This document shows, piece after piece, positions 22,830 to 44,591 of a stretch of 45,180 bases of DNA. The notes below the pieces were generated by a model, which saw only the letters and a list, made by a program, of their open reading frames with translations, was not told where the DNA came from and made no database searches. The stretch comes from Phycisphaerae bacterium (GTDB taxonomy: Bacteria > Planctomycetota > Phycisphaerae > Sedimentisphaerales > Anaerohalosphaeraceae). The stretch is from contig JACZKQ010000097.1 in assembly GCA_014859965.1 (NCBI GenBank), positions 1 to 45,180 on the forward strand, in the 5' to 3' direction. The first letter of the stretch is position 1. Every line of letters begins with the position of its first letter. The position numbers and the translations under genes were made by a program.

Positions 22830-22957
22830 CGTATGGCGGACGTCCCTCGGGCGCCTGCTGCAGCCACAGAGATTTCATGTAATCTCTTCGGGTGCGGGGC
22901 GTCTATATACCGGCCGGCTGTGTGTCGGGTGGTGGTAATTCAGTAAGGAGGCATTGC

Positions 22958-24361
22958 ATGGAGAAATGCGGGGTTCTGAGGCTGTGTGTCGTGTTTGCGG
23001 CGGCGCTGGGCGGCGGTCTGCCGGCGGCTTGGGCGGATGAACGGCCAACCGGCCGGTTGATGATCGTCGGGGAGCATATCGAGCGGCTCGTTCTGGTGGA
23101 CCAGCACGGTGAATCGCAGATTTATTCGGGCGACGATCTCAATACCGGCATTAGTCTGGCGCCGGATAGATACCGGCCTCGAGAAGTGTATTTGAAGGGC
23201 GGATACCAATGCCATCTCTGGTCGGAGATGCAGTTTGCGCCGGTGAAGGTCGAGGCGGGTCAAACAACGGAACTGAAGGTCGGGGCGCCGCTGACGCAGG
23301 GGCTCAAGGTTGAGCGGCGAGGCAAGTTGTTTCTGCTGCAGTACGAGCTGCAGGGCGTCGGCGGCGAAACGTATACGGCTGCGAACCGAGGCGCACCGCC
23401 CGAGTTTGCCGTATACAAGGGTGATCGCAAGGTAGGCGGCGGCCGATTTGAGTATGGCTGAGGCGGCACATGCTCGTACTCGTGGCGAGTACCTTTTCAT
23501 GTTCATGGTGATTTGAAATTCGTAGCTCAGCACGACCTGGGCGAGTTGGGGCCGAAGGAGAGTGCGGCGGTGACTGCGTCGTGGCGCCTTGTGGATCAGT
23601 TTTCAGGTCTGGCCGTCTGGGTGCTTCTGGCTGCGGCAATTGTCCTGTTAAAGGAGAATCGCAATCGAAAAGTGCTGCTGATCGTGCTGCCGGTAATAGC
23701 TGTGAACCTTCTGTGGATCGGTATCAAGTTGCTTCTTGCCAGCTCAGCGGGAATGCCATCCGGGTCGGCGGCGTTGTTTGACGTTCTGGTCGCGGGCTTC
23801 ACTGTCGGTGCGGCGCTGGTGTTGTTGATCGCGGGCCGATTCAAGGGTATGAATCGCTTCCTCATCGTGCTGTTGGCAGCGGCGGTGATGGCGGCCGCAT
23901 TCGCGCTGTCTTATATCGGTTCGCGGGGACTGGTCTTTGGCGGCGAGGCGATTCAACTGAGCATCTTCTTTGGCGTGATAACCGTGGCCGCAATGCTGGC
24001 CCTGGTGCTGGCGGGTCTGTTTTGCCGCAGGCATTTCGGGGCGGTCAAGTTTGCATTATGGCTCGGCGCCTGGTGCGTGCTCCTGTGCGCGGGCATGCTG
24101 CTGTCAGTGGCGCTTACCGTGGCGCTGGTGATGACGGCCCTGGGCAACCATATGTCCGTCTGGGGCCAGATCGGCAAGTTTATCTTCGCCGGTGGCACAA
24201 TGGGCGCGGTGGTCTATGTGTTTCTGCTGCCATTCGTGGTCCTGGCGATCAGCAGCGACCTTTTCGGCGGGCGGTTTTACGGGTGTTTCCGGCGGAAGGG
24301 TATGGTGATTCCGCAGGCGGGTGTAGAAGCGGACGTGGCAAACGACCGGCAAACGACTTAG
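22958..24361 (+). CDS. Candidate selenoprotein, FEYGU family, fused to a polytopic membrane domain
   Basis: Read with TGA 23459-23461 as Sec, this is one 467-residue protein with Sec at 168. It has a signal peptide (LCVVFAAALGGGLPAAWAD), an extracytoplasmic beta-rich domain (about 30-165) ending in FEYG-U-GGTCSYSWRVP, a short linker, then about eight membrane segments to the C terminus. The 5' and 3' parts are in the same frame with no stop but the TGA; the 3' part alone lacks an ATG or ribosome site (its first possible start is a TTG at 23513). AAGGAG lies 7 nt before ATG 22958. The Sec and the Cys four residues later form a UxxxC pair suited to redox chemistry outside the cytoplasm. A SECIS-like hairpin follows the TGA. 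The same motif and upstream domain recur in two genes at 37.4-38.8 kb. A conventional call would split it in two genes. Function unknown. Confidence 0.85.
23476..23492 (+). promoter_or_regulatory. Candidate bacterial SECIS element (FEYGU membrane protein)
   Basis: GTACTCG, loop TGG, CGAGTAC: a perfect 7-bp stem at +15 to +31 after the TGA, with the loop at +22 to +24. Position and small GU-containing tip fit what SelB recognises in bacterial mRNAs. Confidence 0.75.
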
Positions 24362-24435: not shown

Positions 24436-25299
24436 TTAGTTTGTGACCTCCTGCTGCTCTTCGACCCGTTCGGGGGCGGCAGGGCCTTCGAAAACGGTGC
24501 TGACGCCGAGTGCTCCGGGCCCGCAGCGTGTGCATTCGAGGCAGCGGATGCAGCCGTGGTGGTTGGGGTCATTGTCCGGTGCGCCGCCGTAGGCGCAGAG
24601 GGTGCGGCAGCGCTTGCATGCGGTGCATTTGTGGTCTTCGAGCCGCATGGACAGGACGCTGAAGCGATTGAGGAACCCGAAGATCGCGCCTAAGGGGCAC
24701 AGGACGCGGCACCAGGGGCGGATCGTGATGAACATCGCCACGATCATCGCGACGACGATGCTGATTTTGACGGCGTTGGGCCAGATGATTTCCTTGCCCG
24801 TGACGGCCTGCGTAATGACGTCCGGGACGGCCTTTTCGAGTGCGCCGGCCGGGCAGATGCGGCAGACAAACAGCGGGTGGCCTTCGCCGAAGAGATACGG
24901 AATCACGAAGACGGCGCCGATGAGCACGACATAACGGAAGTAACCGGTCCATAAGGGCAGACTGAATTTCTTGATGGGGACCTTGGCGCCCAAATCCTGG
25001 AGAAGCCCGAAGGGGCAAACCCAGCCGCAGATCAATGCCCCAAAGAGCGCACCCACTGCGAGAACGGTGCCGATGGCGAGGAAGGGGAACACATGTATGG
25101 CGCTGAATTGGGCCATGATCCCGATCGGGCACGCGAAGGTCGACAGGGGGCAGGCGTAGCAATGGAAGACGGGGCCGCACACGTTATGGAGGCGCAGACC
25201 AAACGGACCGAGCCAGGCAAATAGAAACCCGACTTGGACCCAAATCCGCCACGGCAGTATGCGGGCGACAAACCGATTCAGTTTTGTTTTCTTGACCAT
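24436..25299 (-). CDS. Membrane-bound polyferredoxin, NapH/CcoG-like
   Basis: A 287-residue integral membrane electron carrier. It has about five membrane segments carrying Cys-Pro motifs (CPLSTFACPIG, CGWVCPFG, CRICPAG, CRVLCPLG) and a C-terminal cytoplasmic pair of 4Fe-4S sites (CTACKRCRTLC and CIRCLECTRC). Proteins of this type pass electrons across or along the membrane from quinol or low-potential donors. The likely start is ATG 25299; no ribosome site precedes it, so translation is probably coupled to the upstream CxxU gene, whose SECIS-like hairpin includes this ATG. In the same operon as a candidate selenoprotein and convergent with the FEYGU membrane protein, it may feed electrons to these redox tails. 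Partner unknown. Confidence 0.88.
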   Translation of the reverse strand: MVKKTKLNRFVARILPWRIWVQVGFLFAWLGPFGLRLHNVCGPVFHCYACPLSTFACPIGIMAQFSAIHVFPFLAIGTVLAVGALFGALICGWVCPFGLLQDLGAKVPIKKFSLPLWTGYFRYVVLIGAVFVIPYLFGEGHPLFVCRICPAGALEKAVPDVITQAVTGKEIIWPNAVKISIVVAMIVAMFITIRPWCRVLCPLGAIFGFLNRFSVLSMRLEDHKCTACKRCRTLCAYGGAPDNDPNHHGCIRCLECTRCGPGALGVSTVFEGPAAPERVEEQQEVTN

Positions 25300-25312
25300 G
25301 GACACCACAGTC
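25294..25312 (-). promoter_or_regulatory. Candidate bacterial SECIS element (CxxU protein)
   Basis: GACTGTGG, loop TGT, CCATGGTC: an 8-bp stem with two G-U pairs at +15 to +33 after the TGA. It extends past the TAA of the CxxU gene and over the ATG of the ferredoxin gene. Confidence 0.6.
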
Positions 25313-30459: not shown

Positions 30460-30554
30460 TGGCGGAGGCGAATGGGAATCGAACCCACCCGGGACCTTAT
30501 CGGCCCCACAACGGTTTTGAAGACCGCGGGCAACACCAGTCACCAGTCACCTCC
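30460..30554 (-). tRNA. selC: tRNA-Sec (anticodon UCA)
   Basis: All hallmarks of bacterial tRNA-Sec are visible. The acceptor stem has 8 bp (GGAGGTGA with TCGCCTCC), the T stem 5 bp (GTGGG with CCCAT around TTCGATT), the D stem 6 bp (GGTGAC with GTTGCC) with a 4-nt loop, and there is a long variable arm (GGGGCC with GGTCCC). The anticodon loop is CTTCAAA, anticodon TCA at 30518-30520. The discriminator is G and CCA is encoded. It lies 24 nt after the selD stop on the same strand, so it is probably cut from the selD transcript. Confidence 0.97.
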
Positions 30555-30578: not shown

Positions 30579-32177
30579 TCACGGCTGCGGCTTATGCTGC
30601 TTGTAGAACATCATACACGGTGCGCCGCCGAATGCAATGCCCATCCACGCGGCCTCGTCGATTTCCTGCTCGGTAAAGCCTTTTTCGCGGGCCTTTGCGA
30701 TATGGCTGGCGACGCACGGCTCGCACCGCTGGGCGACGGACAGCGCAATGGAAATTGCCTGTTTGGTGTAGGCGTCCAGGCCGCCGGGGCGATTCACCTG
30801 CCCCATGAAGTCCATGAACTTCTGTTGGGCGCCCGATTCGTCCGCCGTGCCGGCAGCAGGCGTCGACGCAGCAGCAAGGGTCTCAGCACAGCATGCGGTT
30901 TCCGCCGGCGCGGCGGCCGGGGGCATAACAGCGGGCTCCTTCGGCGCCTTCTCCCTCGGTCGCGGGTCGGGCAGTGTTCGCTGGCCCGTCGTTCGCACAT
31001 GCACCTTGCCCGCGCCCCTGGCCAGGACTCTGCCGATCACCACAGCGGCCAATACGCCGGCTTCGTGCAGGGCCTTGAGCAGCGTGTCGGCCTTGCCCGG
31101 CTCGATAGCAATCAGCAGCCCGCCGGAGGTCTGGGCGTCAAAGCACATGTCCAGCATCTCGGGCGTGAGGCCTTCGCCTCCGATGACGCGGCCCCCGCAG
31201 GACTCCTTGTTGCGTTCGATCGCACCGGGCAATATCCCATCGGCGACGTATTGCAGCAGATGCGGAAAGACCGGCAAATCGTCCCAGACGACCTCCACGT
31301 CCACGCCGCTGGACAAAGCCATCTCCGACAGGTGGCCCATAAGGCTAAAGCCGGTCACGTCGGTGCAGGCGTGCGCGCCGAATTCGACCATCAGCCGCGA
31401 GGCCTCCTTGTTGAGCGTGGTCATGGATACGGCCGACGCCTCAACGCTTTCAGCGAACGCCCGGCCGATCTGCGAGGCGAACGCGATGATGCCTGTGCCC
31501 AGCGGCTTGGTAAGGATCAGCACGTCGTCGGGGCGGGCGGTGGCGTTGGCGGTAACCTGATTAATGGGCATAACGCCGGTGACCGCAAAGCCCGCCTTGA
31601 TCTCAGGGTCATTGATGCTGTGGCCGCCGATGATGGCGACGCCCGCCTCTTTCATCTTGTCGATGCCGCCGCGAAGGATTTCAGTGAGCGCGTTGTCGGG
31701 CACTTTGCGCACGGGAAAACCGATGACCGAAAGCGCCGTCAGTGGAATGCCGCCCATCGCGTAGATGTCGCTGACGGAGTTAGCGGCGGCGACCTGCCCA
31801 AAGGTGTACGGATCGTCGACCGACGGCGTGAATACATCGACCGTCTGCACGAGCGCCTTGCCGTCGCCGATATCGAAAATACCCGCGTCGTCGCCTGCCG
31901 GCACGCCGACCAGCACGCGCGGATCGTCGACCACGGGCAGCCCCTTGAGAACCTCCTTAAGGAATGCCTGATCGATCTTGGACGCGCAGCCGGCCTTCTC
32001 GATGAGGTGCGTGAGCTTGACCTCACCGGTCGGCGATTCGACCCGCTCACCCGCACAGAGGCAGATATCCTTCTCGCGGAACAGGTCGCAAGGGCAAGGC
32101 TTTCTGGCATCGCAGATGCAGTGACCCAGCTTGATCGAACGTTTCATGATCCGTTTGCGTTTTTCGAGATTACGCAT
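30579..32177 (-). CDS. selD: Selenophosphate synthetase with Cys-rich N terminus and C-terminal AhpD-like domain
   Basis: SelD makes selenophosphate from selenide and ATP. The core (about residues 53-400) is the usual PurM-like kinase, with the catalytic Cys64 and Lys67 in AGCASK (E. coli has GCGCK; the second Cys is Ser here). Two additions are unusual. Residues 18-45 hold three CxC pairs (Cys 20/22, 28/30, 39/41: CIC, CPC, CLC), which could bind an iron-sulfur cluster or a selenium species. Residues about 430-532 are a carboxymuconolactone decarboxylase/AhpD-like domain with CEPC at 485-488 and His492, the CxxCxxxH active-site pattern, joined by an Ala/Pro-rich linker. The 532-residue protein is far longer than the usual 345. 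It ends an operon with HgdB-like genes and precedes tRNA-Sec. Confidence 0.95.
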   Translation of the reverse strand: MRNLEKRKRIMKRSIKLGHCICDARKPCPCDLFREKDICLCAGERVESPTGEVKLTHLIEKAGCASKIDQAFLKEVLKGLPVVDDPRVLVGVPAGDDAGIFDIGDGKALVQTVDVFTPSVDDPYTFGQVAAANSVSDIYAMGGIPLTALSVIGFPVRKVPDNALTEILRGGIDKMKEAGVAIIGGHSINDPEIKAGFAVTGVMPINQVTANATARPDDVLILTKPLGTGIIAFASQIGRAFAESVEASAVSMTTLNKEASRLMVEFGAHACTDVTGFSLMGHLSEMALSSGVDVEVVWDDLPVFPHLLQYVADGILPGAIERNKESCGGRVIGGEGLTPEMLDMCFDAQTSGGLLIAIEPGKADTLLKALHEAGVLAAVVIGRVLARGAGKVHVRTTGQRTLPDPRPREKAPKEPAVMPPAAAPAETACCAETLAAASTPAAGTADESGAQQKFMDFMGQVNRPGGLDAYTKQAISIALSVAQRCEPCVASHIAKAREKGFTEQEIDEAAWMGIAFGGAPCMMFYKQHKPQP

Positions 32178-32207: not shown

Positions 32208-32981
32208 TCAGTCTTTCCTCATTGCCATGATGGCGGCGCCGAGCGCGCCTGTGATTTGCGGGTGCGGGCAGATCGCCACCTCGCTGCCGAGGGCTTCGGC
32301 AAGGGCTCTGTCCATGCCGCCGACGAGTGCGACGCCGCCGGTGAAGATCACCGGGCCGTGGACGACCGCCCCGGCCATTGCGGCGGTTCGCCCCGCGATG
32401 GCGTGCATGACACCCGCGACGATGTCGGCGGGTTCAGCGCCCGAGGCGAGCAGCCCCACGATCTCCGTCTCCGCGAAGACGACGCACATGCTGCTGATCT
32501 GGGCGGGCCGGCGGCTTTGGCTTGCCAGTTCACCAAGGTCGCACAGTCGCACGGCGAGCCGGTCGGCGACGATTTCGAGAAATCGGCCGGTGCCCGCGGC
32601 GCAGCGGTCGTTCATGGCGAAGTCGCGGACCCTGCCACCGGTGTCGAGGTGCAGCAGTTTGCTGTCCTGGCCGCCAATGTCGATTACCGTGCGGGCCGTG
32701 TCGACGAGCCTGCGGACTCCGGCGGCATGGCAGGTGATCTCGGTGACGGTGGTGCCGGCGACAGAGACGATGGCTCGTCCGTACCCCGTAGCGACGGCGC
32801 CCGCGACGTCCGACTCCCCGATGCCATTCTCTTCGAGCAATTGCCTGTAAAGCCGCCCGGCGAGTTTCGCCTGTTCGACGCCCTGGTCGGCAATCGCCGA
32901 GGCGACGATGCGGCCCGATGGGCCGTCGAGCAGCACGATCTTGACGGCTCTTGAGCCCGCGTCGATGCCTGCGTAAATCAT
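32208..32981 (-). CDS. BadF/BadG/HgdC-type ATPase activator
   Basis: A 257-residue ATPase of the family that activates 2-hydroxyacyl-CoA dehydratases, benzoyl-CoA reductases and double-cubane proteins by ATP-driven electron injection. It starts with the ASKHA phosphate loop GIDAGSRAVK, followed by TVIDIGGQDSK and the cluster region MNDRCAAGTGRFLE and SSMCVVFAETE; the two Cys bind a 4Fe-4S cluster bridging a dimer in the family. FTGGVA completes the nucleotide site. The ATG overlaps the stop of the upstream gene (ATGA), so translation is coupled. selD begins 30 nt later. It is the expected partner of the three upstream dehydratase-like proteins. Confidence 0.93.
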   Translation of the reverse strand: MIYAGIDAGSRAVKIVLLDGPSGRIVASAIADQGVEQAKLAGRLYRQLLEENGIGESDVAGAVATGYGRAIVSVAGTTVTEITCHAAGVRRLVDTARTVIDIGGQDSKLLHLDTGGRVRDFAMNDRCAAGTGRFLEIVADRLAVRLCDLGELASQSRRPAQISSMCVVFAETEIVGLLASGAEPADIVAGVMHAIAGRTAAMAGAVVHGPVIFTGGVALVGGMDRALAEALGSEVAICPHPQITGALGAAIMAMRKD

Positions 32982-34363
32982 GGTTGCCTCCGTTGATGGA
33001 TGGTTTCGACGAGCGCCTCGATGCGGGTTGCGATGGCGGGGCGGATCGCATCGGTCAGCGGCGGAATTTCGATTTCGAGCACGGCAAGCCCGCATGTCTT
33101 GCGGAGGTGCTCGGCGATGATTCGGCCCTCGACGGCGCAGTGGCTTGCGCCCGGTATGCGGGAGATGATCACAGCCTCAGCCCCGAAGGTGCGGGCGTCG
33201 GCGGCGATGCGGGCGGCGCGGTCGACCGCCGAGCCGGCCATCGGATCGGCCAGTGCCGCCAGGGCGAGTGCTTCGAGCGGTTCGACATCTTCACGCAGGA
33301 GGTCCAGTGCGTGGGTAAACATGTATTCCGTGCCGCAGATCCTTGCCCCGTATTGTTCAAGCAGGTTCATCACCCGAAGGTCGGCGACAGGGTTGACCCA
33401 GAAGACCTTTACGGCGTCCGGGCTGCCGAAGCCGACTCCCGCGGCGATGCGAGCCTGCACCTCGGCGCCGAGTTCCTCAAGCACCGCCGCGGTTTCTTCG
33501 CGGTCGCTGCAGTAATGGATCGCCAGCATCTCGGCAATGAGCATCTCCAGCGCGGGCATGGGACAGCGCGACGCCGTGAAGACCGTGCGGCGGAGTTCCG
33601 AAAGCAGGCGGCGAATGTCGTTGGCGCGGGCGATGGCCGACGACAGCGCGGCGTCGTCGAGTTGGACGCCGGAGACCTCTTCGAGGGCCCTTTGCACGAG
33701 CACCAGTTGCGCCCGCACAAAGTCGACCTGCGATTGGGCAGCGACAAACGTTCCGCCCGGAAGCGTTACACATTGCTCGCCTTGTTCGGGACCCCGGCGG
33801 TGCGGGATTTCCCACCACACAATTGTGTGCCCGAGTCCCTCCAGCCGCTGGGCGATGGCGCTGAAGTCGTCGCATGTTGCCCCGACGCTGCACGTCAGCA
33901 GGTCCGGGATCGGAAAGTGATTGCCGGTGACGAACGCGCCCAGCATGGCTCGCACGGGGCAGAAAGATTCGTCGACACCGAGCGAGTCGGCGACGGCCAG
34001 CAGCCGGTCGCTGTTTTCCATCACGCAGGGAATCCACCATGCGCCGTCGGGGTAAAAGGCGACCACGTTATCCAGCGCATTGGCCATCACCGCCGTCGTG
34101 CCAAGGTCCTTCATCACGCCGACGATCTTCTTCCCCTCCGACCTCGCTTGCGTCAGGCGTTCTTCTTCAGTCAGCAGGAAATTCCACAGACGCAGCGCGG
34201 CGGCCGAATCATCGAACATCAGTTTTCGCAGGCGATAATCCCCATCCTCAGCGTGGCGGCTGAGTTTGCCCCCATAGAAGGGCTCCGCCAGTCCTGCCGA
34301 TTTCAACGCCTCATAGCGCCCGTCCCACTCGTCGAGCGTGATCTGTCGCAGCTTTTGCGTCAT
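32978..34363 (-). CDS. 2-hydroxyacyl-CoA dehydratase-like subunit (HgdB superfamily)
   Basis: A 461-residue protein related to the 2-hydroxyacyl-CoA dehydratase/benzoyl-CoA reductase subunits. Segments such as FCPVRAMLGAFVTGNHFPIPDLLTCSVGATCDD and a later WWEIPHR place Cys residues where the family binds its cluster; the second half repeats the fold (VFWVNPVADLRVMNLLEQYGARICGTEYMF). It starts at ATG 34363, overlapping the upstream stop (ATGA); an upstream in-frame ATG would overlap the previous gene by about 190 nt. It lies between a second HgdB-like gene and the ATPase, so it is probably one of two unlike subunits of an ATP-driven reductase. No CoA substrate can be inferred, and no CoA-transferase gene is nearby. 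Confidence 0.85.
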   Translation of the reverse strand: MTQKLRQITLDEWDGRYEALKSAGLAEPFYGGKLSRHAEDGDYRLRKLMFDDSAAALRLWNFLLTEEERLTQARSEGKKIVGVMKDLGTTAVMANALDNVVAFYPDGAWWIPCVMENSDRLLAVADSLGVDESFCPVRAMLGAFVTGNHFPIPDLLTCSVGATCDDFSAIAQRLEGLGHTIVWWEIPHRRGPEQGEQCVTLPGGTFVAAQSQVDFVRAQLVLVQRALEEVSGVQLDDAALSSAIARANDIRRLLSELRRTVFTASRCPMPALEMLIAEMLAIHYCSDREETAAVLEELGAEVQARIAAGVGFGSPDAVKVFWVNPVADLRVMNLLEQYGARICGTEYMFTHALDLLREDVEPLEALALAALADPMAGSAVDRAARIAADARTFGAEAVIISRIPGASHCAVEGRIIAEHLRKTCGLAVLEIEIPPLTDAIRPAIATRIEALVETIHQRRQP

Positions 34364-35268
34364 TGCAGCGTCTCCAGAAAAGCCTGTACGCGGCCGGCCG
34401 TCCGCTCGCCGGCGGCCGGGCTGTCGTCGCTGACATCCAGATCGAGCAGCGGCACGTGCAGGGCATCCCTGAGCCGATGAACTTCCGCATGCCAGAGGTC
34501 GCACCACACAAGACGCCGACAGATGACGCCCTGCACACGGCGCTCGGTGCATTCACGGGTGAGCCAGTCAAAGAGACCGGTGTTGGGTCGCTTCCAGACG
34601 GCGGGAATCGAATCGAAGTAAGCCCGCGCGAGTTCACCGACTGGATCCTGCCGCAGCAGCGCGGGATCGAACCGGTCCGGCAGCGTGCGCTCGCCGGTCT
34701 CGGTTGCGTCGAATACGATTCGCCCGCCGTTCCGCACGACCAGATCAAACAGCCCCGACTCTCCTGCGAGCAGAGGCCCGCCGACAAGTGCGAGCCGAAC
34801 GCCGCCGCTGTCGGCAACCCGACGGTCGGGCATCGCTTGCCTGCGCCCGTCAAAGTCAAGCATCGTCGCCGCCAGGGCATCGGCCGAAGGCACGCACCCC
34901 CCAAGGGTGTACAGCCACCGTCCCATGCGGCCAAGCTCGTCGATGTAAAGTTGAGTGCAAGCAGCGTTCCGCCACGTCTTGGGCAGATTCAACAGGAAGG
35001 TCTCCACGCATGTCCCATCGACCACGAGGTCGCGCACCCTGCGCATCTGGTCGCACGCGGTGGTGAAGATCGCCCCGCAGGATGTGCTGTCGCCGAGCAC
35101 GTGATTGGCAAATGCCCGGGCAAAGGGACAGAGGCCTTCGATTGGAGCGACTGCGGCATGCATCCCTGTCGACTGCGGCATTATGCGAGCGGGCCGCAAC
35201 CCGTGCGCGGCGATCCACTCGGCCGGGACGAACGGACATGTGTAGAGGATCTGCGACACGCCGGTCAA
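34360..35268 (-). CDS. 2-hydroxyacyl-CoA dehydratase-like subunit (HgdB superfamily)
   Basis: A 302-residue member of the same superfamily, shorter than the typical 380-430 residues. Its cluster-site cysteines are in LYTCPFVPAEWI, EGLCPFARAF, FTTACDQMRRVRD and RRLVWCDLWHAE, in family order. The start is a TTG overlapping the stop of the upstream gene (TTGA), and its own stop overlaps the next ATG (ATGA). Such tight coupling suggests subunits made in equal amounts. With the 461-residue neighbour it may form a heterodimer carrying iron-sulfur clusters, activated by the ATPase at 32208. Confidence 0.82.
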   Translation of the reverse strand: MTGVSQILYTCPFVPAEWIAAHGLRPARIMPQSTGMHAAVAPIEGLCPFARAFANHVLGDSTSCGAIFTTACDQMRRVRDLVVDGTCVETFLLNLPKTWRNAACTQLYIDELGRMGRWLYTLGGCVPSADALAATMLDFDGRRQAMPDRRVADSGGVRLALVGGPLLAGESGLFDLVVRNGGRIVFDATETGERTLPDRFDPALLRQDPVGELARAYFDSIPAVWKRPNTGLFDWLTRECTERRVQGVICRRLVWCDLWHAEVHRLRDALHVPLLDLDVSDDSPAAGERTAGRVQAFLETLQ

Positions 35269-36428
35269 TCCTTCCTTGCCATTTCGAATAACGCCTCGAC
35301 GCGGACCGCGATGCGGGCCGAGTCCGACGGCGAGTAGTCGGTTTCGATTTTCAGGTAGGGTAGCCCGAGTCTTTCAGCGGCAAGCCGCCGGACAAAATAC
35401 GACTCGACGTCGTAGGTCAAGCAGGCCTGCCAGACAAGGTCGATAATGCAGTCGGCTCGATATGTGCCGGCGAGTTGTTCGAGCATCTCCATGCGCCGGT
35501 CGTTTCGCGTCATCACCGAGCACGGCAGACGAAAATACTTCTCCGCGATCGCCTCCATCGGGTCGGCGGCGTTTTCGTCGACGTCTTCGAGAATGGGCTT
35601 CAGGCCGGTGCAGTTTTCCATGCAGACGACCAGACCTCCGTTTGCCTCGATAAGATCCACAATGCGTTCGGCCCCGTGCACCACGGGCACGCCGGTGAGA
35701 AGCACGCGCACCGGCCGCTTGCTCGCCCCTACCAACGGCGCCGAGCGATAAAGCTGCAGAGCCTCATCATACTGCTCGAAGTCGGCTTCAATACCTGATA
35801 TGCTGCTCTTGAAGTCGAGCAGTTGTCGTCCCGTAATCGGCGGTGCGTCACCGGCCATAAGCTGAGCTAATTGCCGCCTGAGGCCGCGTTCGCGATTCAT
35901 CGTACGGATCGCCCCGCGGAGTCTCTCATCGGTGATCCGCATATCGAATCGCCCCTCGAGAACGCGTTTGAACTTGTCCAGTTCGCTTCGCCAGTGCTGC
36001 ATGGCGTCGGCGTCGTCGGGTTTCTGCGCCAGTTCGAGCACGTGCATCGGCCGAGTCTCGGACAGAAGTTCATACATCTTCTTTTTGCCGTCGCACGTAG
36101 TCTCGGCGACGATAAGATCCGCCATTTCGAGAAAAGGGTTCGTCTTCTGAACGTGGTAGCCGTACGTCGATTTGATCAGCGGGCAAAGGTTCGCCGGCAG
36201 GTGCTGCTCGGCGGCCGCAATCGTCTGCTGCGAGCCCCCGCACAGACAGACCGGCACGGCGTCGGCCGCCAGAATCAATTCGCGCGGCGTAAACTCGCAC
36301 ATGATGCCCACGATGCCCCTGCCCTGTGCCTTGGCCCTCGTGGCGTATTCGCAGCATCGGCCGATCATACCGCCGAACCACGCACGCGGCCCGTCGCCTG
36401 GTTTGCTATTGGGACAGCATTGTGTCAT
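35265..36428 (-). CDS. Double-cubane cluster protein-like (YjiM/DCCP type)
   Basis: A 387-residue protein that resembles the E. coli YjiM/double-cubane cluster protein branch of the HgdB superfamily, in length and in motif order: GIMCEFTPRELILAADAVPVCLCGGSQ, NLCPLIKSTYGY, ADLIVAETTCDGKKKMYE and IDLVWQACLTYDVES near the end. Known members hold an unusual iron-sulfur double cubane and, when fed electrons by their ATPase, reduce difficult small molecules. The ATPase at 32208 would be the partner. Its stop overlaps the TTG start of the next gene. The presence of this protein in an operon ending in selD and tRNA-Sec is striking; the physiological substrate is unknown. Confidence 0.85.
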   Translation of the reverse strand: MTQCCPNSKPGDGPRAWFGGMIGRCCEYATRAKAQGRGIVGIMCEFTPRELILAADAVPVCLCGGSQQTIAAAEQHLPANLCPLIKSTYGYHVQKTNPFLEMADLIVAETTCDGKKKMYELLSETRPMHVLELAQKPDDADAMQHWRSELDKFKRVLEGRFDMRITDERLRGAIRTMNRERGLRRQLAQLMAGDAPPITGRQLLDFKSSISGIEADFEQYDEALQLYRSAPLVGASKRPVRVLLTGVPVVHGAERIVDLIEANGGLVVCMENCTGLKPILEDVDENAADPMEAIAEKYFRLPCSVMTRNDRRMEMLEQLAGTYRADCIIDLVWQACLTYDVESYFVRRLAAERLGLPYLKIETDYSPSDSARIAVRVEALFEMARKD

Positions 36429-36494: not shown

Positions 36495-37301
36495 TCAATC
36501 CTCTTTCCGGGCGACGAAAAGCCCCTGTGCGATACGGCCGTCGTGGGCGAGTTGCTGCATGAACTGCATCTCGCCGGCGATCGCCGTCAGCATGCCTTCG
36601 TCGAAGCCGATGATCTTTAGCACGTCATAGCCCAACTGCTTGCCGACCATGTCGAGGTACAAGTCGACGTAGGGCGCAAATCGGCCGGTGTCCTCGGCGG
36701 TGACGATGCGGCAGTTGTTTGCTTCCAGCAATCCACAGTAGCCGTCGATGTCCTCCATGTTGGCAAACTTCATGAACTTCATGAATCGTCCGGCCTGCTC
36801 GTCGGAAAGCCCCGCCGGCCCCTCTACCCAGTCGGTGAAGGCGATGACGCCGCCGGGTCGCACGATCCGCGCCGCCTCGGCGATGAGCCGCTCTTTGTCC
36901 TCAACATAGCACCACGCGTCTTCGCCCCAGACAAAGTCCACGCCATCGCTTTCGAGACCGCTGTCGCAAACATCGGCGAGCACGAAGTCAATGCGGTCGG
37001 CAAGGCCTTCCGCGCGGCAGCGCCGCTGCCCTTCTTTCACGACGGCTTCGGTAGCGTCCACGCCGACCATCCGTGCCGCGCCCTGCATGCGCACCAGGAA
37101 CCGCATGCCCGCGCCGGTGCAGCAGCACAGGTCGACGCCGTGGGCGCCGGCGGCAATACCCGCCTTTTCGCACAGGTCCAGCGACGAAAGGAACCCGCCG
37201 ATATGAATCTGTTCGCCCATGATCCGTTCCCACAACCGGCCTTCTGGGCCGCTGTAGACCTCCTGCACGTCCGTCAGAGCGATGCCTTCGATTCTCTTCA
37301 T
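36495..37301 (-). CDS. SAM-dependent methyltransferase
   Basis: A 268-residue class I methyltransferase. The SAM-binding glycine motif is GVDLCCCTGAGM, followed by VGVDATEAVV (acidic ribose contact), DFVLADVCD and FVWGEDAWCYVED; the C-terminal half resembles sarcosine/dimethylglycine or ubiquinone-type methyltransferases. It is the first gene of the run of minus-strand genes leading to selD (66 nt to the double-cubane protein) and lies after the terminator at 37328. It could methylate a small molecule in this pathway. A selenium-methylating role is possible only as speculation. The triple Cys in the SAM loop is unusual. Confidence 0.87.
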   Translation of the reverse strand: MKRIEGIALTDVQEVYSGPEGRLWERIMGEQIHIGGFLSSLDLCEKAGIAAGAHGVDLCCCTGAGMRFLVRMQGAARMVGVDATEAVVKEGQRRCRAEGLADRIDFVLADVCDSGLESDGVDFVWGEDAWCYVEDKERLIAEAARIVRPGGVIAFTDWVEGPAGLSDEQAGRFMKFMKFANMEDIDGYCGLLEANNCRIVTAEDTGRFAPYVDLYLDMVGKQLGYDVLKIIGFDEGMLTAIAGEMQFMQQLAHDGRIAQGLFVARKED

Positions 37302-37389: not shown

Positions 37390-38061
37390 CTAATTAATCA
37401 TGTGCCAGGTTTCGTCCTGTTTCATCTCAAAGGGGCCCGACTCGACGTCGACAACTACGCGGAATGCGCCCTCGAAACCTTTTGGCACTCGCCACGAGTA
37501 CCGGCAGGTTCCGCCTCAGCCATACTCGAACTTGCCGGTCTGCAGCACATTGCCGGCCTTGTCGAGAATGGTGAATTTCGGCGCACCCACGGTCTTGCCG
37601 TTTCGCTTAAACATTGAATAATGTTCGCCGTGCGCTCCCACAAGCAACGGGGCGAGAAGCCGCACGCCGCTGCCCGCAGCGGTAACGTCAACCTTGGCAA
37701 TCAAAGGACCGTCCAGCTTCACGACCGTGGTCTGCCCTTTTTCGACAACGACAGGGGCCAGTTCGCCCCATGGTCCGTTGCTGTACACTTGCCATTCTTC
37801 CGTGGTCTTGCTTCCGCCGCCGGAGACAATCTGCTGCTCAAGAGTCCTGTACAATTGCACCGGCGTGTATTGGCCGGCCCTGATAGGCTGGGGTTCTGTG
37901 GTTGGCCCGACGGTAGCCCCCAACCCGAGCGATCCCCGAATAATCAGCCTCGCCCCTTCGGAGTCGGCTGCGATCATACCGGTTTTGCGCAGAGAGAGCA
38001 GCCCCGCGGCAACCAACCCCAAAGCGAGAAGAACCATTACAATCGCGACTAACTTTTTCAT
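37390..38061 (-). CDS. Candidate selenoprotein, FEYGU family
   Basis: With TGA 37516-37518 read as Sec this is a 223-residue protein, Sec at 182, ending at TAG. One N-terminal membrane helix or uncleaved signal (AIVMVLLALGLVAAGLLSL) anchors an exported beta-rich domain. The shared core runs from VVVEKGQTTVVKLDGPL through GEHYSMFKRNG and PKFTILDKAGNVLQTGK to FEYG-U-GGTCRYSWRVPKGFEG; 41 residues follow Sec. The paralog at 38151 aligns both before and after the TGA (GPFEMKQDETW against GPFETKQELEW), so the region after the TGA is a conserved protein. A strong terminator lies just past the TAG. A conventional call would stop at residue 181. Predicted role: extracytoplasmic UxxxC redox protein; substrate unknown. 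Confidence 0.88.
37484..37502 (-). promoter_or_regulatory. Candidate bacterial SECIS element (FEYGU protein, 37390 gene)
   Basis: GGTACTCG, loop TGG, CGAGTGCC: an 8-bp stem with one U-G pair at +14 to +32 after the TGA, loop at +22 to +24. Confidence 0.75.
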
Positions 38062-38150: not shown

Positions 38151-38834
38151 TCAGTAAACCGTATACCACTCCAGTTCCTGTTTTGTTTCAAACGGGCCGA
38201 GGTTTGCGTCGATTTTGACCTGGTACCGTCCCTTGAAAGATTGGGGCACCCGACACGAGTGCTTGCACACGCCGCCTCAGCCATACTCAAAATGCCCGGC
38301 TGCGAGCACCTGACCGTTTTCGCCCACAAGCTGAAACCTCGGGGCGGGCTCCCATGCGCCGTTTTTCAGGGCGCCCGGTACGTATTTTTCGCCGGCCTGT
38401 CCTTCCAGATGGACCCCCACAGTAACCCTGTTGCCGTACGCCTGAGCCTCGGTCCGGATGAACAGCGGCGGGCCGCTCTTGCTGTCGCGAACCACCACGC
38501 TGGATTGGCCTTTCATGAGTTGCAGGGTCCAGAGGTCTCCGTCCGCCGTGCGCATCTCGGGCGCCCCAAGCTTTTTCAGGCTAGGCATGTCGGGTTTAGA
38601 AGGCGTAAACAGGCGAATGCAGGCAATCGTCAGGATGACAGCGCCGCTGGCCGCAAGAAGCACTGCCGGCCTGCGCCACAACGGTCGCTCCTCATCGTAC
38701 CCGGCGAAGAGCGACTTGAGCCGGCGGAACCCATCCGTCGCCATCTGCCGGCCCTCCCCCGACTGGATCCGGTCCCAGACCCGAAGCACGGTCTGAGAAA
38801 TCAGACCGAACAGTGCCAAAATAAAGTTCTTCAC
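38151..38834 (-). CDS. Candidate selenoprotein, FEYGU family
   Basis: With TGA 38277-38279 read as Sec the protein has 227 residues with Sec at 186 and a TGA stop at 38151. The start is GTG 38834, 8 nt after GGAGGT. A cytoplasmic N-terminal part (about 60 residues) precedes one membrane helix (AVLLAASGAVILTIACIRLF), so the C-terminal domain would face outward. That domain shows KGQSSVVVRD, AGEKYVPGALKNG, PAPRFQLVGENGQVLAAGH and FEYG-U-GGVCKHSCRVPQSFKG, then GPFETKQELEW. Its resemblance to the 37390 gene continues for 41 residues beyond the TGA. Here the second Cys (SCRVP) replaces the Trp of the paralogs. It lies 89 nt upstream of the 37390 gene in the same orientation and shares its terminator. 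Confidence 0.87.
38246..38262 (-). promoter_or_regulatory. Candidate bacterial SECIS element (FEYGU protein, 38151 gene)
   Basis: GCACTCG, loop TGT, CGGGTGC: a 7-bp stem with one U-G pair at +15 to +31 after the TGA, loop at +22 to +24. Compared with the paralogs, a U-A pair has become C-G, a compensatory change. Confidence 0.75.
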
Positions 38835-38912
38835 TATAATGGACCTCCCGTAAAGCCGGCATTCCTCGCCATTTGCGCCTCCAATAGGGTCTCGCCGGCA
38901 GCCGGCCCACAC

Positions 38913-40469: not shown

Positions 40470-41876
40470 ATGAATGATTCGAGTCAGGAGCTTTTGCGGC
40501 GGATACCGTCAGTGGATGCCTTGTTAAAGCAGCCCCAGGTCGCCGGCCTTATCGACCGCTTCGGTCGCCGCATCGTGGCCGATTCGTTTCGCCGCGCCGC
40601 CGACAACGTCCGCCAGGCAATACTCTCCGGCCAAACACAGGGCTTCGACGACGGAGTCGATCTCCGCATCATGGCAGACGCCGCCGCCCGGGTCAAGGCG
40701 CTCACACACCGCCACTATCGCCGCGTCATCAACGCCGCCGGCATCGTCCTTCACACCGGCCTCGGCAGGGCGGTCCTCTGCCGCCAGGCCGTCGAGCAGC
40801 TCGCCGAAGAGATGGGCCACTACTCGCTCCTCCAGGTCGACACCGAAGAAGGCAAACGCTCCACCCGCGACAGCCACATCGAGCAACTGCTGCAAATCCT
40901 CACCGGCGCAGAAGCCGCCACAGTCGTCAACAACAACGCCGCCGCGACCTCCCTCGTGCTCAACACTGTCGCCGCCGGCCGCGAGGTCATCGTCTCGCGA
41001 GGCCAGCTCGTCGAGATCGGCGGCGCATTCCGCCTCCCCGACGTCATGGCCTTCAGCGGCGCAAAGATGATCGAGGTCGGCACGACCAACAAGACCCACG
41101 TCCGCGATTATGAAAACGCCATCACCGAAAACACCGCGGCCCTGTTGCGGGTCCATCCGAGCAACTACAAAATCCAGGGGTTCACCTCCGAGGTATCGCT
41201 CGATGACATGGTCGCCATAGCGCGCCGCCACAATCTCGTCATGATCGACGACGTCGGCGCCGGCTCTCTGGTCGATTTCTCAAAGTACGGTTTCGAGCCC
41301 GAGCCCACCCTCGCCCAGTCCGTCGCCGCCGGAAGCGACATCATCACCTCCAGCGCCGACAAGCTCATCGGCGCCTCCCAGGGCGGCATCATCCTCGGCC
41401 GCACCGCGTGGATCGACGCCGTCCGAAAAAACCAGTTCGCCCGCATCGTCCGCGTAGGCAAGCTCACACTGGCGGTCCTCGAAGCCACCCTGAAACTCTT
41501 CCTCGACGAAGCCGCCGCCCTGCGCGAGGTCCCCACCTGCCAAATGCTCCTGCGGCCCGCCGACGACATCGCCCGCCAGGCCAAACGCATCGCCGCCCAA
41601 CTCCAAAAGGCCCAACTCCCCGCCGAGATCGCGACCGCCCCTGGCTTCTCCCAAACCGGCAGCGGCTCTCTGCCCACCCAAAACATGCCGACGACCCTGG
41701 TCACGGTCACGCCCGCCAAGATGACCGCTGAAACCCTCGCCGCCCGCCTCCGCAGCCACAAAACCCCCATCTTCTCCCGAATCCAAAAAGCCCAGATCCT
41801 CCTCGACCCTAGAACCCTCCGAGAAGACGACGAAAAAATCCTCACCCAGGCCCTCATCGAACTCCTGAAGACATAA
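40470..41876 (+). CDS. selA: L-seryl-tRNA(Sec) selenium transferase
   Basis: SelA is a PLP enzyme that converts Ser-tRNA-Sec to Sec-tRNA-Sec with selenophosphate. The 468-residue length is typical. The N-terminal tRNA-binding part (RRIPSVDALLKQP) is present, the family segment NAAGIVLHTGLGRA follows, then NNNAAATSLVLNTVAAGREVIVSRGQLVEIGG, and the PLP lysine is K298 in SSADKLIGASQGG. It follows the DUF2283-like gene by 23 nt. selB is downstream but separated by an AbrB-Doc module, an unusual insertion because selA and selB are normally adjacent. Codon use is very C-rich on this strand. Confidence 0.98.
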   Translation: MNDSSQELLRRIPSVDALLKQPQVAGLIDRFGRRIVADSFRRAADNVRQAILSGQTQGFDDGVDLRIMADAAARVKALTHRHYRRVINAAGIVLHTGLGRAVLCRQAVEQLAEEMGHYSLLQVDTEEGKRSTRDSHIEQLLQILTGAEAATVVNNNAAATSLVLNTVAAGREVIVSRGQLVEIGGAFRLPDVMAFSGAKMIEVGTTNKTHVRDYENAITENTAALLRVHPSNYKIQGFTSEVSLDDMVAIARRHNLVMIDDVGAGSLVDFSKYGFEPEPTLAQSVAAGSDIITSSADKLIGASQGGIILGRTAWIDAVRKNQFARIVRVGKLTLAVLEATLKLFLDEAAALREVPTCQMLLRPADDIARQAKRIAAQLQKAQLPAEIATAPGFSQTGSGSLPTQNMPTTLVTVTPAKMTAETLAARLRSHKTPIFSRIQKAQILLDPRTLREDDEKILTQALIELLKT

Positions 41877-42671: not shown

Positions 42672-44591
42672 ATGGCGACATCAAAAATCAACATTACGTT
42701 AGGCACGGCCGGGCACATTGACCACGGCAAAACGGCCCTGATCAAGCTGCTCACCGGCTGCGATACGGACTTCCTCAAGGAGGAGAAAGAGCGGGGCATG
42801 TCGATCGAGCTGGGCTTTGCCCCCTGCACCATCGCCGACCTCGAAGTCGGCATCGTCGACGTCCCCGGCCACGAGCACTTCATCAAAACCATGGTCGCCG
42901 GCGCCACCGGCATCGACGGCGTCATCTTCGTCATCGCCGCCGACGACGGCGTCATGCCGCAGACCCGCGAGCACCTCGACATCCTCACGCTGCTCGGCGT
43001 CGCCCACGGCATCGTCGCCCTCACGAAGGTCGACGCCGTTTCGCCCGAGCGGGTCGCCGCGGTCACCGACGAGGTCCGCCGCTTCCTGACCGGCACGTTC
43101 CTCGCCGACGCCCCCATCCTGCCGATGTCCTCCATCACCGGCCAGGGCTTCGACGGCTTCTACGAAGGCCTCCGAGACCTCGTCGCCCAAATCCGCCCGC
43201 GCACCGTCGAAGGCGTGTTCCGCCTCCCGATCGAAAAGACCTTCTCCGTAAAAGGCTACGGCTCCGTAGTCACCGGCATCCCCGTCTCCGGCTGTGCCGC
43301 CGTCGGCGACGAGGTTGTGCTCCTGCCGCAGGGCCAGAAGGGCCGCATCAAAGCCATCCAGGTCTACAGCAGCCCCGCCGAGCAGGTCCTCTCCGGCCAG
43401 TGTGCCGCCCTCAGCGTCCCGCAGTGGGACTACCGCAGTATCGTCCGCGGCAACGTCGTCACCGTCGGCCGCTACTTCGCCCCGCGCCAGTGGTACCTCT
43501 GCAAGCTGCAAATGCTGCCGCAGGACAAGCTCTTCCTCAAGACCGGCACGCAGGTCAAGTTCCACACCGGCGCAAGCGAAGTCGTCGCCAAGGTCTACCT
43601 CATGGAGGGCAACACAATCACCGCCGGCCGCGAGCAGGTCGTCCAGATCCACACCGAGCGGCCCGTGGTCGCCGCCCCCGGCGACCGCTTCATCATCCGC
43701 ACGCCCAGCCCCGCCAACACCATCGGCGGCGGCCTCATCGTCGAAGCCATGGACCAGCGCATCCGCCGCAGTCGGCCGGACCTCCTCGACGAGGCACGCG
43801 CGCGGGCCGAAGCCGTCTCCGGCGAACTCAGCTTTCTCGAATACTGCGTCAAAACCGCAGAAGGCGGCGCCGCAAACCCGCAGCAGCTTTCCCTCCGCGC
43901 AAAAATCCTGCCGCCGCGACTGGACATGCTCCTGACGCAATTGCAGCAGGCCGGCACAATCACCCGCCTCTCCGGCAATCTGTTCGTACACGTCTCGGCC
44001 GCCGAGCAACTCGAAAACAAGCTCACCGACGCCGTGCGCCAGTTTCACAACACCCAGCCCGAGAGCCCCGGCATAGCCCCCGACGCGCTGCTGCACGCCT
44101 CCGGCCTCAATAAGAACGTCTTCGACGGCCTCCTCGAACGCATGCTGGCCGCCGGCACACTGACCCAGCGAAAAGGCTGCATCGCGCTGCCCGAACATCG
44201 CGAGGATTTCGACCCCGCCCAGCGCCGCCTGCTCGCGTCGGTCGAGGACCTGTTCGCAAAGCGCCTCTTCAACCCGCCGTCCATCGACGAAGCCGCCGCC
44301 GCCATCGGCGTGCCCGTCGGGGCGGTCCAGAAGACGGTCCGCATCCTCACCGAGCAGCAGACCCTCGTGCAGATCGACCGCGACAACGTCTTCCACAGCA
44401 AGGCAATCCGCGAGGCCTCAAGACGCCTCACGGAGCACATCCAAAAAGAAGGAAAGCTTGAAAGCGTCGCCTTCAAGTACCTGCTCGACACAACCAGAAA
44501 ATGGGCGATTCCGCTGCTCGACTACATGGACAAGATCGGCGTAACAATGCGCTCCGGAAACACACGCTACCTCAAGAAACCCCTCGCTTAG
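42672..44591 (+). CDS. selB: Selenocysteine-specific elongation factor
   Basis: SelB carries Sec-tRNA-Sec to ribosomes paused at UGA with a SECIS. The 639-residue protein has the G domain at the start (GTAGHIDHGKTALIKLLTG, then DVPGHE and TKVD), two EF-Tu-like barrel domains up to about residue 370, and winged-helix domains from about 380 to the end, the last of which bind the SECIS hairpin (DKIGVTMRSGNTRYLKK is the typical end). GGGAGAT precedes the ATG. The complete SECIS-binding end supports active decoding. It starts 72 nt after doc and is followed by the PGUGSP gene. Confidence 0.98.
   Translation: MATSKINITLGTAGHIDHGKTALIKLLTGCDTDFLKEEKERGMSIELGFAPCTIADLEVGIVDVPGHEHFIKTMVAGATGIDGVIFVIAADDGVMPQTREHLDILTLLGVAHGIVALTKVDAVSPERVAAVTDEVRRFLTGTFLADAPILPMSSITGQGFDGFYEGLRDLVAQIRPRTVEGVFRLPIEKTFSVKGYGSVVTGIPVSGCAAVGDEVVLLPQGQKGRIKAIQVYSSPAEQVLSGQCAALSVPQWDYRSIVRGNVVTVGRYFAPRQWYLCKLQMLPQDKLFLKTGTQVKFHTGASEVVAKVYLMEGNTITAGREQVVQIHTERPVVAAPGDRFIIRTPSPANTIGGGLIVEAMDQRIRRSRPDLLDEARARAEAVSGELSFLEYCVKTAEGGAANPQQLSLRAKILPPRLDMLLTQLQQAGTITRLSGNLFVHVSAAEQLENKLTDAVRQFHNTQPESPGIAPDALLHASGLNKNVFDGLLERMLAAGTLTQRKGCIALPEHREDFDPAQRRLLASVEDLFAKRLFNPPSIDEAAAAIGVPVGAVQKTVRILTEQQTLVQIDRDNVFHSKAIREASRRLTEHIQKEGKLESVAFKYLLDTTRKWAIPLLDYMDKIGVTMRSGNTRYLKKPLA

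Follow-up and report, generated by a model that had tools for sequence, protein, structure and literature searches.

Reading frame and conservation of the in-frame TGA

In the stretch of DNA analysed here (the window; 45,180 nucleotides of contig JACZKQ010000097.1 from a Phycisphaerae bacterium), ORF calling under genetic code table 11 yields two neighbouring forward-strand ORFs, one at 22892/22958–23461 and a TTG-started one at 23513–24361. The question raised by this locus is whether these are two genes or a single gene interrupted by a TGA that is read as selenocysteine (Sec), and, if so, what kind of protein such a gene encodes. A single frame runs from the ATG at 22958, with a Shine-Dalgarno-like AAGGAGG (22945–22951) 6 nt upstream, through the in-frame TGA at 23459–23461 to the TAG stop at 24359–24361. 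The complete selenoprotein gene (22958–24361, + strand) thus comprises 467 residues with one in-frame TGA at codon 168 (U168), and both the frame and its splitting in two are exactly as described in the original prediction.

The DNA motif surrounding the TGA is present in three copies in the window, compared to 0.01 expected from shuffled sequences. The two other copies belong to reverse-strand FEYGU selenoprotein genes at 37390–38061 (Sec codon 37516–37518) and 38151–38912 (Sec codon 38277–38279; start uncertain). The earlier description of the fused gene as a third FEYGU paralog is an undercount, as the genome has at least seven family genes: six copies of the DNA motif were found when up to 2 mismatches were allowed, and a profile search found seven copies of the Sec domain.

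A query with the full-length protein against 148 relatives recovered the joined architecture in about 30 genomes. We aligned 30 loci from 23 genera (the window included) with homology on both flanks of the TGA; TGA occupies the Sec column in all of them, and neither TAA nor TAG occurs there. Identity to the window protein over the flanks on both sides of the TGA is 30–48%, and the shared TGA is therefore not due to recent copying. No start codon is conserved within 150 columns 3′ of the TGA in these loci, and the best early candidate, the TTG at +19, occurs in only eight, in agreement with the proposal that the downstream part has no start of its own. Nearly all named records in which the fused gene occurs are Planctomycetota metagenome-assembled genomes, several labelled Sedimentisphaerales or Phycisphaerae; a few records are labelled otherwise.

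The membrane domain alone was detected by profile search in 38 of 161 genomes of the order, and matches outside the order were marginal. The matches opened in those 161 genomes included no membrane gene that was recognisable as intact, separate and equipped with its own start. Several loci seemed to lack the TGA: undetermined bases cover the site in the second copy of genome G107 and in G023, and the others are a frame break (G120), a fragment (G145) and a decayed copy (G084:C175). None of them counts as evidence for a separate membrane gene. The G107 copy (L040, G107:C1 at about 464.7 kb) is a tandem second fused gene with an N run over the Sec site; tandem pairs of the fused selenoprotein gene are also found in two genomes (L047, 7165–10177; L076, 1562–5828).

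A SECIS-type hairpin follows the Sec codon

Immediately downstream of the TGA we found a SECIS-type hairpin (23476–23492, +; GTACTCG-TGG-CGAGTAC, 7-bp stem), supported by synonymous constraint and covariation. Codon choice in the block that follows the TGA is nearly frozen compared with codon usage elsewhere in the same genes: Ser is TCG in 52/52 cases (19% elsewhere), Tyr is TAC in 29/29 (42%), Arg is CGA in 27/30 (15%) and Val is GTA in 28/30 (17%). These codons spell the 7-bp stem although the amino acids permit many synonyms. Over gap-free sites of the whole family, each stem pair is intact in 66–75 of 75. Among 32 distinct sites, 94.2% of cells are paired, and changes on both sides affect four stem pairs in 21 cells, a cell count matched by none of 500 shuffles. 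The clearest compensatory case is the exchange of Tyr and Val (TAC/GTA, SYSWRVP) for Leu and Glu (CTC/GAG, SLSWREP) between different subfamilies, by which TAC...GTA becomes CTC...GAG and the stem pairs change from A-U to U-A and from U-A to C-G. GCC...GGC forms provide a further stem replacement.

Published constraints on bacterial SECIS elements are a loop of 3–9 nt, a stem of 4–16 bp, a G in the first two loop positions, a spacing of 16–37 nt and a minimum free energy of at most –7.5 (PMC13188914). The hairpin described here falls within them, with a 3-nt loop (UGG, G second), 7 bp and a spacing of 21 nt. Folding energies of the 39-nt segments range from –8.3 to –15.2 kcal/mol, the minimum-energy fold not always being this hairpin. 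No Rfam match was found around it. A DNA pattern based on the SECIS hairpin retrieved 32 contigs; among these, L071 matches by chance, and a few others carry non-fused family members.

Selenocysteine machinery and decoding of the TGA

All the genes expected for Sec insertion are in the window, 6–20 kb from the fused gene: tRNA-Sec with anticodon TCA (30460–30554, –; ARAGORN), selD with a C-terminal AhpD domain (30579–32177, –; TIGR00476 over cut-off, TIGR00778), selA (40470–41876, +; TIGR00474 over cut-off) and selB (42672–44591, +; TIGR00475 over cut-off). The AhpD domain fused to SelD (TIGR00778) resembles the AhpD of known arsenite-methyltransferase selenoproteins.

SelB scored over its cut-off in 38 of the 148 relatives, and 37 of these also match the full-length family query; the 38th (G047) has Sec-domain matches. 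Neither SelB nor the family was found in 97 genomes. The co-occurrence is highly significant (Fisher test, p about 1e-22), with the reservation that related genomes are not independent. Thirteen family genomes have no SelB over cut-off. Many of these are incomplete bins; the single-contig genomes G105, G107 and G137 also belong to the thirteen. Truncated SelB-like pieces are present in G098, G108 and G137; such pieces do not explain the absence of SelB in G105 and G107.

Two other readings of the TGA have to be weighed against these data. If it were a true stop, the locus would hold two real genes, or a decayed one, with the membrane protein made from a start of its own, for example the TTG at 23513. 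Such a reading is what table 11 literally yields, but it is at odds with the invariant TGA column free of TAA and TAG, with the start survey and with the membrane-domain matches that were opened, and on these grounds we rejected it; the frozen synonymous sites and the covarying hairpin likewise leave it practically no probability. If the TGA were instead translated as a different amino acid, Trp or Gly, through reassignment or leaky readthrough, the frame would also stay open, as it would under any decoding of TGA. However, TGA terminates at least seven further genes in the window, and in several homologs of the fused gene it serves both as an internal codon and as the stop. TGA is an ordinary stop in both sets and the code is therefore not reassigned. 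With tRNA-Sec and selAB present, a covarying SECIS and a conserved Cys close to the site in the manner of Sec-Cys motifs, we give this reading hardly any credence.

The two apparent genes are thus almost certainly one selenoprotein gene, whose TGA would be decoded as Sec through the SECIS hairpin and the sel machinery. The TGA conservation, the hairpin covariation and the selB co-occurrence together bear out the original prediction that a single selenoprotein, joined to a polytopic membrane domain, lies hidden in two split genes, and they make the case for Sec decoding as good as sequence alone can give.

Predicted architecture of the fused protein

The protein was modelled with AlphaFold2 using 29 homologs (mean pLDDT 87.6, pTM 0.79). 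A signal peptide is assigned to residues 1–26 (22958–23035; + strand, as for all parts of the gene), with an AWA/DE cleavage site placed by eye and a low-confidence model helix at residues 6–17. The model continues with a first beta domain (residues 31–110, 23048–23287) and an Ig-like domain (residues 112–214, 23291–23599; also by structure comparison) that bears Sec168 and Cys172. The U168-GGT-C172 segment lies at the hairpin turn between strands 157–163 and 173–177. Structure searches with the Ig domain returned generic Ig/Fn3 matches alone (Z about 7), DsbD not being among the matches listed.

The Ig domain is followed by a membrane domain (residues 211–443, 23588–24286), in which seven helices span residues 218–432. 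Modelled alone, it reaches a pLDDT of 89.2, and basic residues alternate between its loops as expected for an N-out/C-in orientation. An eight-helix domain had been proposed; eight are reached only when the signal peptide is counted. Very probably, judging from the model, the protein consists of a signal peptide, a periplasmic beta and Ig-like part with Sec168/Cys172 on a beta-hairpin turn, seven helices and a cytoplasmic C-terminus.

Strictly conserved Cys or His residues are lacking in the membrane part; only C356 and C443 (74% each) come close, both on the cytoplasmic side. For this reason, the suggestion that it is an electron carrier finds no support, and neither sequence nor fold backs a role as a membrane electron carrier or transporter. 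Comparison of the membrane domain with PDB folds gave nothing convincing (best Foldseek E 0.36), and the best VIA score, Z 7.6 to UCP1, falls short of what is trusted for helical bundles. The fused protein is not covered by any Pfam or NCBIfam model, and a PDB sequence search with the Sec-domain profile gave no match.

A Planctomycetota family with a putative Sec-Cys pair

Profile searches found the Sec domain in 37 genomes of a phylum-wide set of 392 and in 32 of 248 genomes of the class. It is also present in other architectures throughout the phylum, and in most cases no membrane part is attached. An internal TGA is present in 59 of the 60 matches listed for the phylum set, the remaining one being without a stop. 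For the class set the figure is 93 of the 100 matches listed; of the other seven, five lack a stop and two are the same decayed locus, which was counted twice.

Across 98 distinct family sites, the partner Cys occupies U+4 (Cys172 in the window protein, 23471–23473) in 77 and U–1 in 11. The latter occur in a divergent subfamily with a C-U pair (GC-U-GxGF..AVxVP, with other downstream sequence; L134, L139, L141, L144, L146, L147, L149, L151, L152). In another divergent member, L155 (G422:C29), one TGA codon directly follows another (PAG-U-U-GSALPV), which may reflect a double-Sec site or an error in the sequence. A few fused homologs (L037, L082) have no partner Cys. The TGA-less homologs examined mostly have other residues at the Sec place and mostly no partner Cys. 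The shifting position of the Cys, together with its loss along with U, suggests a functional Sec-Cys pair.

Cys homologs are a usual, not a defining, property of bacterial selenoproteins. Such homologs of the full 467-residue form were looked for and none was found, and among the Sec-domain homologs examined just one (L162, genome G692) has Cys at the Sec place. For this search, several hundred genomes from one phylum and eight others were scanned with a profile in which Cys is the preferred residue at the Sec position. The fused gene belongs to a selenoprotein family that is widespread in Planctomycetota and apparently undescribed, and in which Cys almost never stands instead of Sec. We propose, tentatively and a little short of an even judgement, that the FEYGU Ig-like domain defines a large Planctomycetota selenoprotein superfamily with many architectures, several copies per genome and Sec practically never replaced by Cys, and that the seven-helix fusion is a new kind of Sec-dependent membrane protein with a function unrepresented in known families.

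Genomic neighbourhood of the fused gene

The conserved neighbour of the fused gene in the window is a NapH/MauN-like membrane ferredoxin (24436–25308, –; Fer4_5, TIGR02163 below cut-off), which is found near the fused gene in 9 of 20 context loci; sel genes are nearby in about half of the 20. In relatives, the fused gene often lies beside another Sec protein (SFEYGU...SLSWREP). A second frequent neighbour there contains carboxypeptidase-regulatory repeats and, at its C-terminus, a thioredoxin-like domain that has QRPS in place of CxxC (L045 4718–7210, L046 2558–5752, L051 10123–12585, L008 2288–4321). This replacement weakens the thioredoxin-like neighbour as a candidate redox partner, and no obvious one is therefore to be seen in it.

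The sel genes are accompanied by a double-cubane-cluster reductase, an activase and a methyltransferase. In the window the double-cubane block (32208–36428, –) sits between selD and the FEYGU genes and comprises an acyl-CoA dehydratase activase (32208–33095, –), a second related subunit (32978–34552, –) and a double-cubane-cluster anaerobic reductase (35265–36428, –; NF040772 over cut-off). The block recurs beside sel genes in L041, L048, L051 and L056, and a link to selenium reduction is conceivable. The methyltransferase (36495–37301, –), weakly related to the DVU_1556 and ArsM families, is kept beside the sel/double-cubane block in relatives.

Possible function of the fused protein

As an overall explanation we lean slightly towards a Sec-decoded fused protein that would act as a Sec-Cys extracytoplasmic redox module similar to the N-terminal domain of DsbD (nDsbD), the Ig fold of which has a hairpin with C103 on one strand and C109 on the other (PMC7347389). 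Sec168 and Cys172 would form a reversible selenylsulfide on the hairpin of the Ig domain, and the module would pass electrons between periplasmic partners and a reductant, which might be the NapH-like ferredoxin encoded next door. The seven-helix part would serve as an anchor or docking platform, not as an electron path; we treat it so because it has no conserved His and only the two 74% Cys, at the cytoplasmic face. That the selenylsulfide makes the protein a membrane-anchored extracytoplasmic thiol/selenol oxidoreductase working like nDsbD is an analogy that we consider evenly poised; searches with the protein gave no sequence match to DsbD, and the structural matches listed included no notable one to it.

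Other roles can be envisaged for the same architecture. The Sec-Cys site might bind a soft metal(loid) or a selenium or sulfur species, which the membrane part would transport or the protein deliver, linkage to sel genes then reflecting selenium supply. The sel genes and double-cubane reductase block linked in about half of the context loci are compatible with this, and a Gly-flanked U in a loop could carry a ligand; since the helices are not lined by conserved polar or Cys/His residues, no transporter fold was matched and the Sec domain is mostly found without a membrane part, we regard it as unlikely. A redox-sensing receptor, in which a periplasmic Sec-Cys switch alters the seven-helix domain and signals via the basic C-terminal tail to a cytoplasmic partner, would suit the N-out seven-helix topology after an extracellular beta domain, the conserved Arg and two 74%-conserved Cys at the cytoplasmic face, and a weak match to 7TMR-DISM in one of 29 homologs (E 0.0014). 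Yet PF07695 matched no fused gene over its cut-off in 40 relatives, G000 included, and there is no intracellular signalling module, which makes a receptor distinctly improbable. The gross plan of an Ig domain with a hairpin redox pair joined to a polytopic domain, as in DsbD (PMC7347389), could further suggest that the membrane domain itself conducts electrons from the cytoplasm to the Sec-Cys pair. With no conserved Cys pair within the helices, no DsbD Pfam match, seven helices instead of eight and both partly conserved Cys on the cytoplasmic side, such a conduit is very unlikely.

Comparison with known systems

The redox module favoured above shares with DsbD a periplasmic Ig-like domain, a redox-capable beta-hairpin pair and a joined polytopic membrane domain. 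The pair is Sec-Cys with a distance of four residues, whereas that of DsbD is Cys-Cys with a distance of six. Unlike DsbD with its eight-helix tmDsbD, the fused protein has seven helices, no conserved Cys pair within them and no C-terminal thioredoxin domain. DsbD/CcdA Pfam models gave no match to the window protein up to E 10 and none at E 0.1 to the 29 homologs. Lacking a sequence match and a conserved membrane Cys pair, the fused protein does not appear from its sequence to be identifiable as a DsbD family member.

Seven helices following an extracellular beta domain are also the plan of 7TMR-DISM (PF07695), whose N-outside topology agrees with our model and loop charges; the fused FEYGU protein differs in having no intracellular module. 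The OS_HP2 (seleno)protein NF041425 (DUF1573-like, UxC) is likewise a beta-rich secreted domain with Sec. It differs in motif and does not match the fused protein; around the Sec region of the second paralog of the window it scores 13.3 bits (E 0.08), against a cut-off of 100.

The FEYGU motif, the Ig-like Sec domain and the membrane fusion are absent from the 119 families and subfamilies of a 2026 review (PMC13188914, Table 1). Our search of the open-access literature found no description of selenoproteins of this lineage; a description elsewhere is possible. Standard annotation cuts the members at the TGA, and a multi-copy family of a major environmental phylum is therefore likely to be invisible in protein databases.

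With the known bacterial selenoprotein families the FEYGU family shares an in-frame UGA, a SECIS hairpin just downstream and a nearby Cys; most known families have many Cys homologs, in contrast to almost none here. According to the 2025 deep-Sep paper, every selenoprotein known so far seems to have Cys homologs, and the filter used there may miss any that have none. In the light of that statement, the near absence of Cys forms is the most consequential part of our finding: a nearly Sec-only family puts the belief in Cys homologs directly to the test and asks what chemistry needs selenium. In this family the Sec-Cys pair is placed on an Ig-like fold, not on the usual thioredoxin-like one, in a protein tied to sel genes and a double-cubane reductase block.
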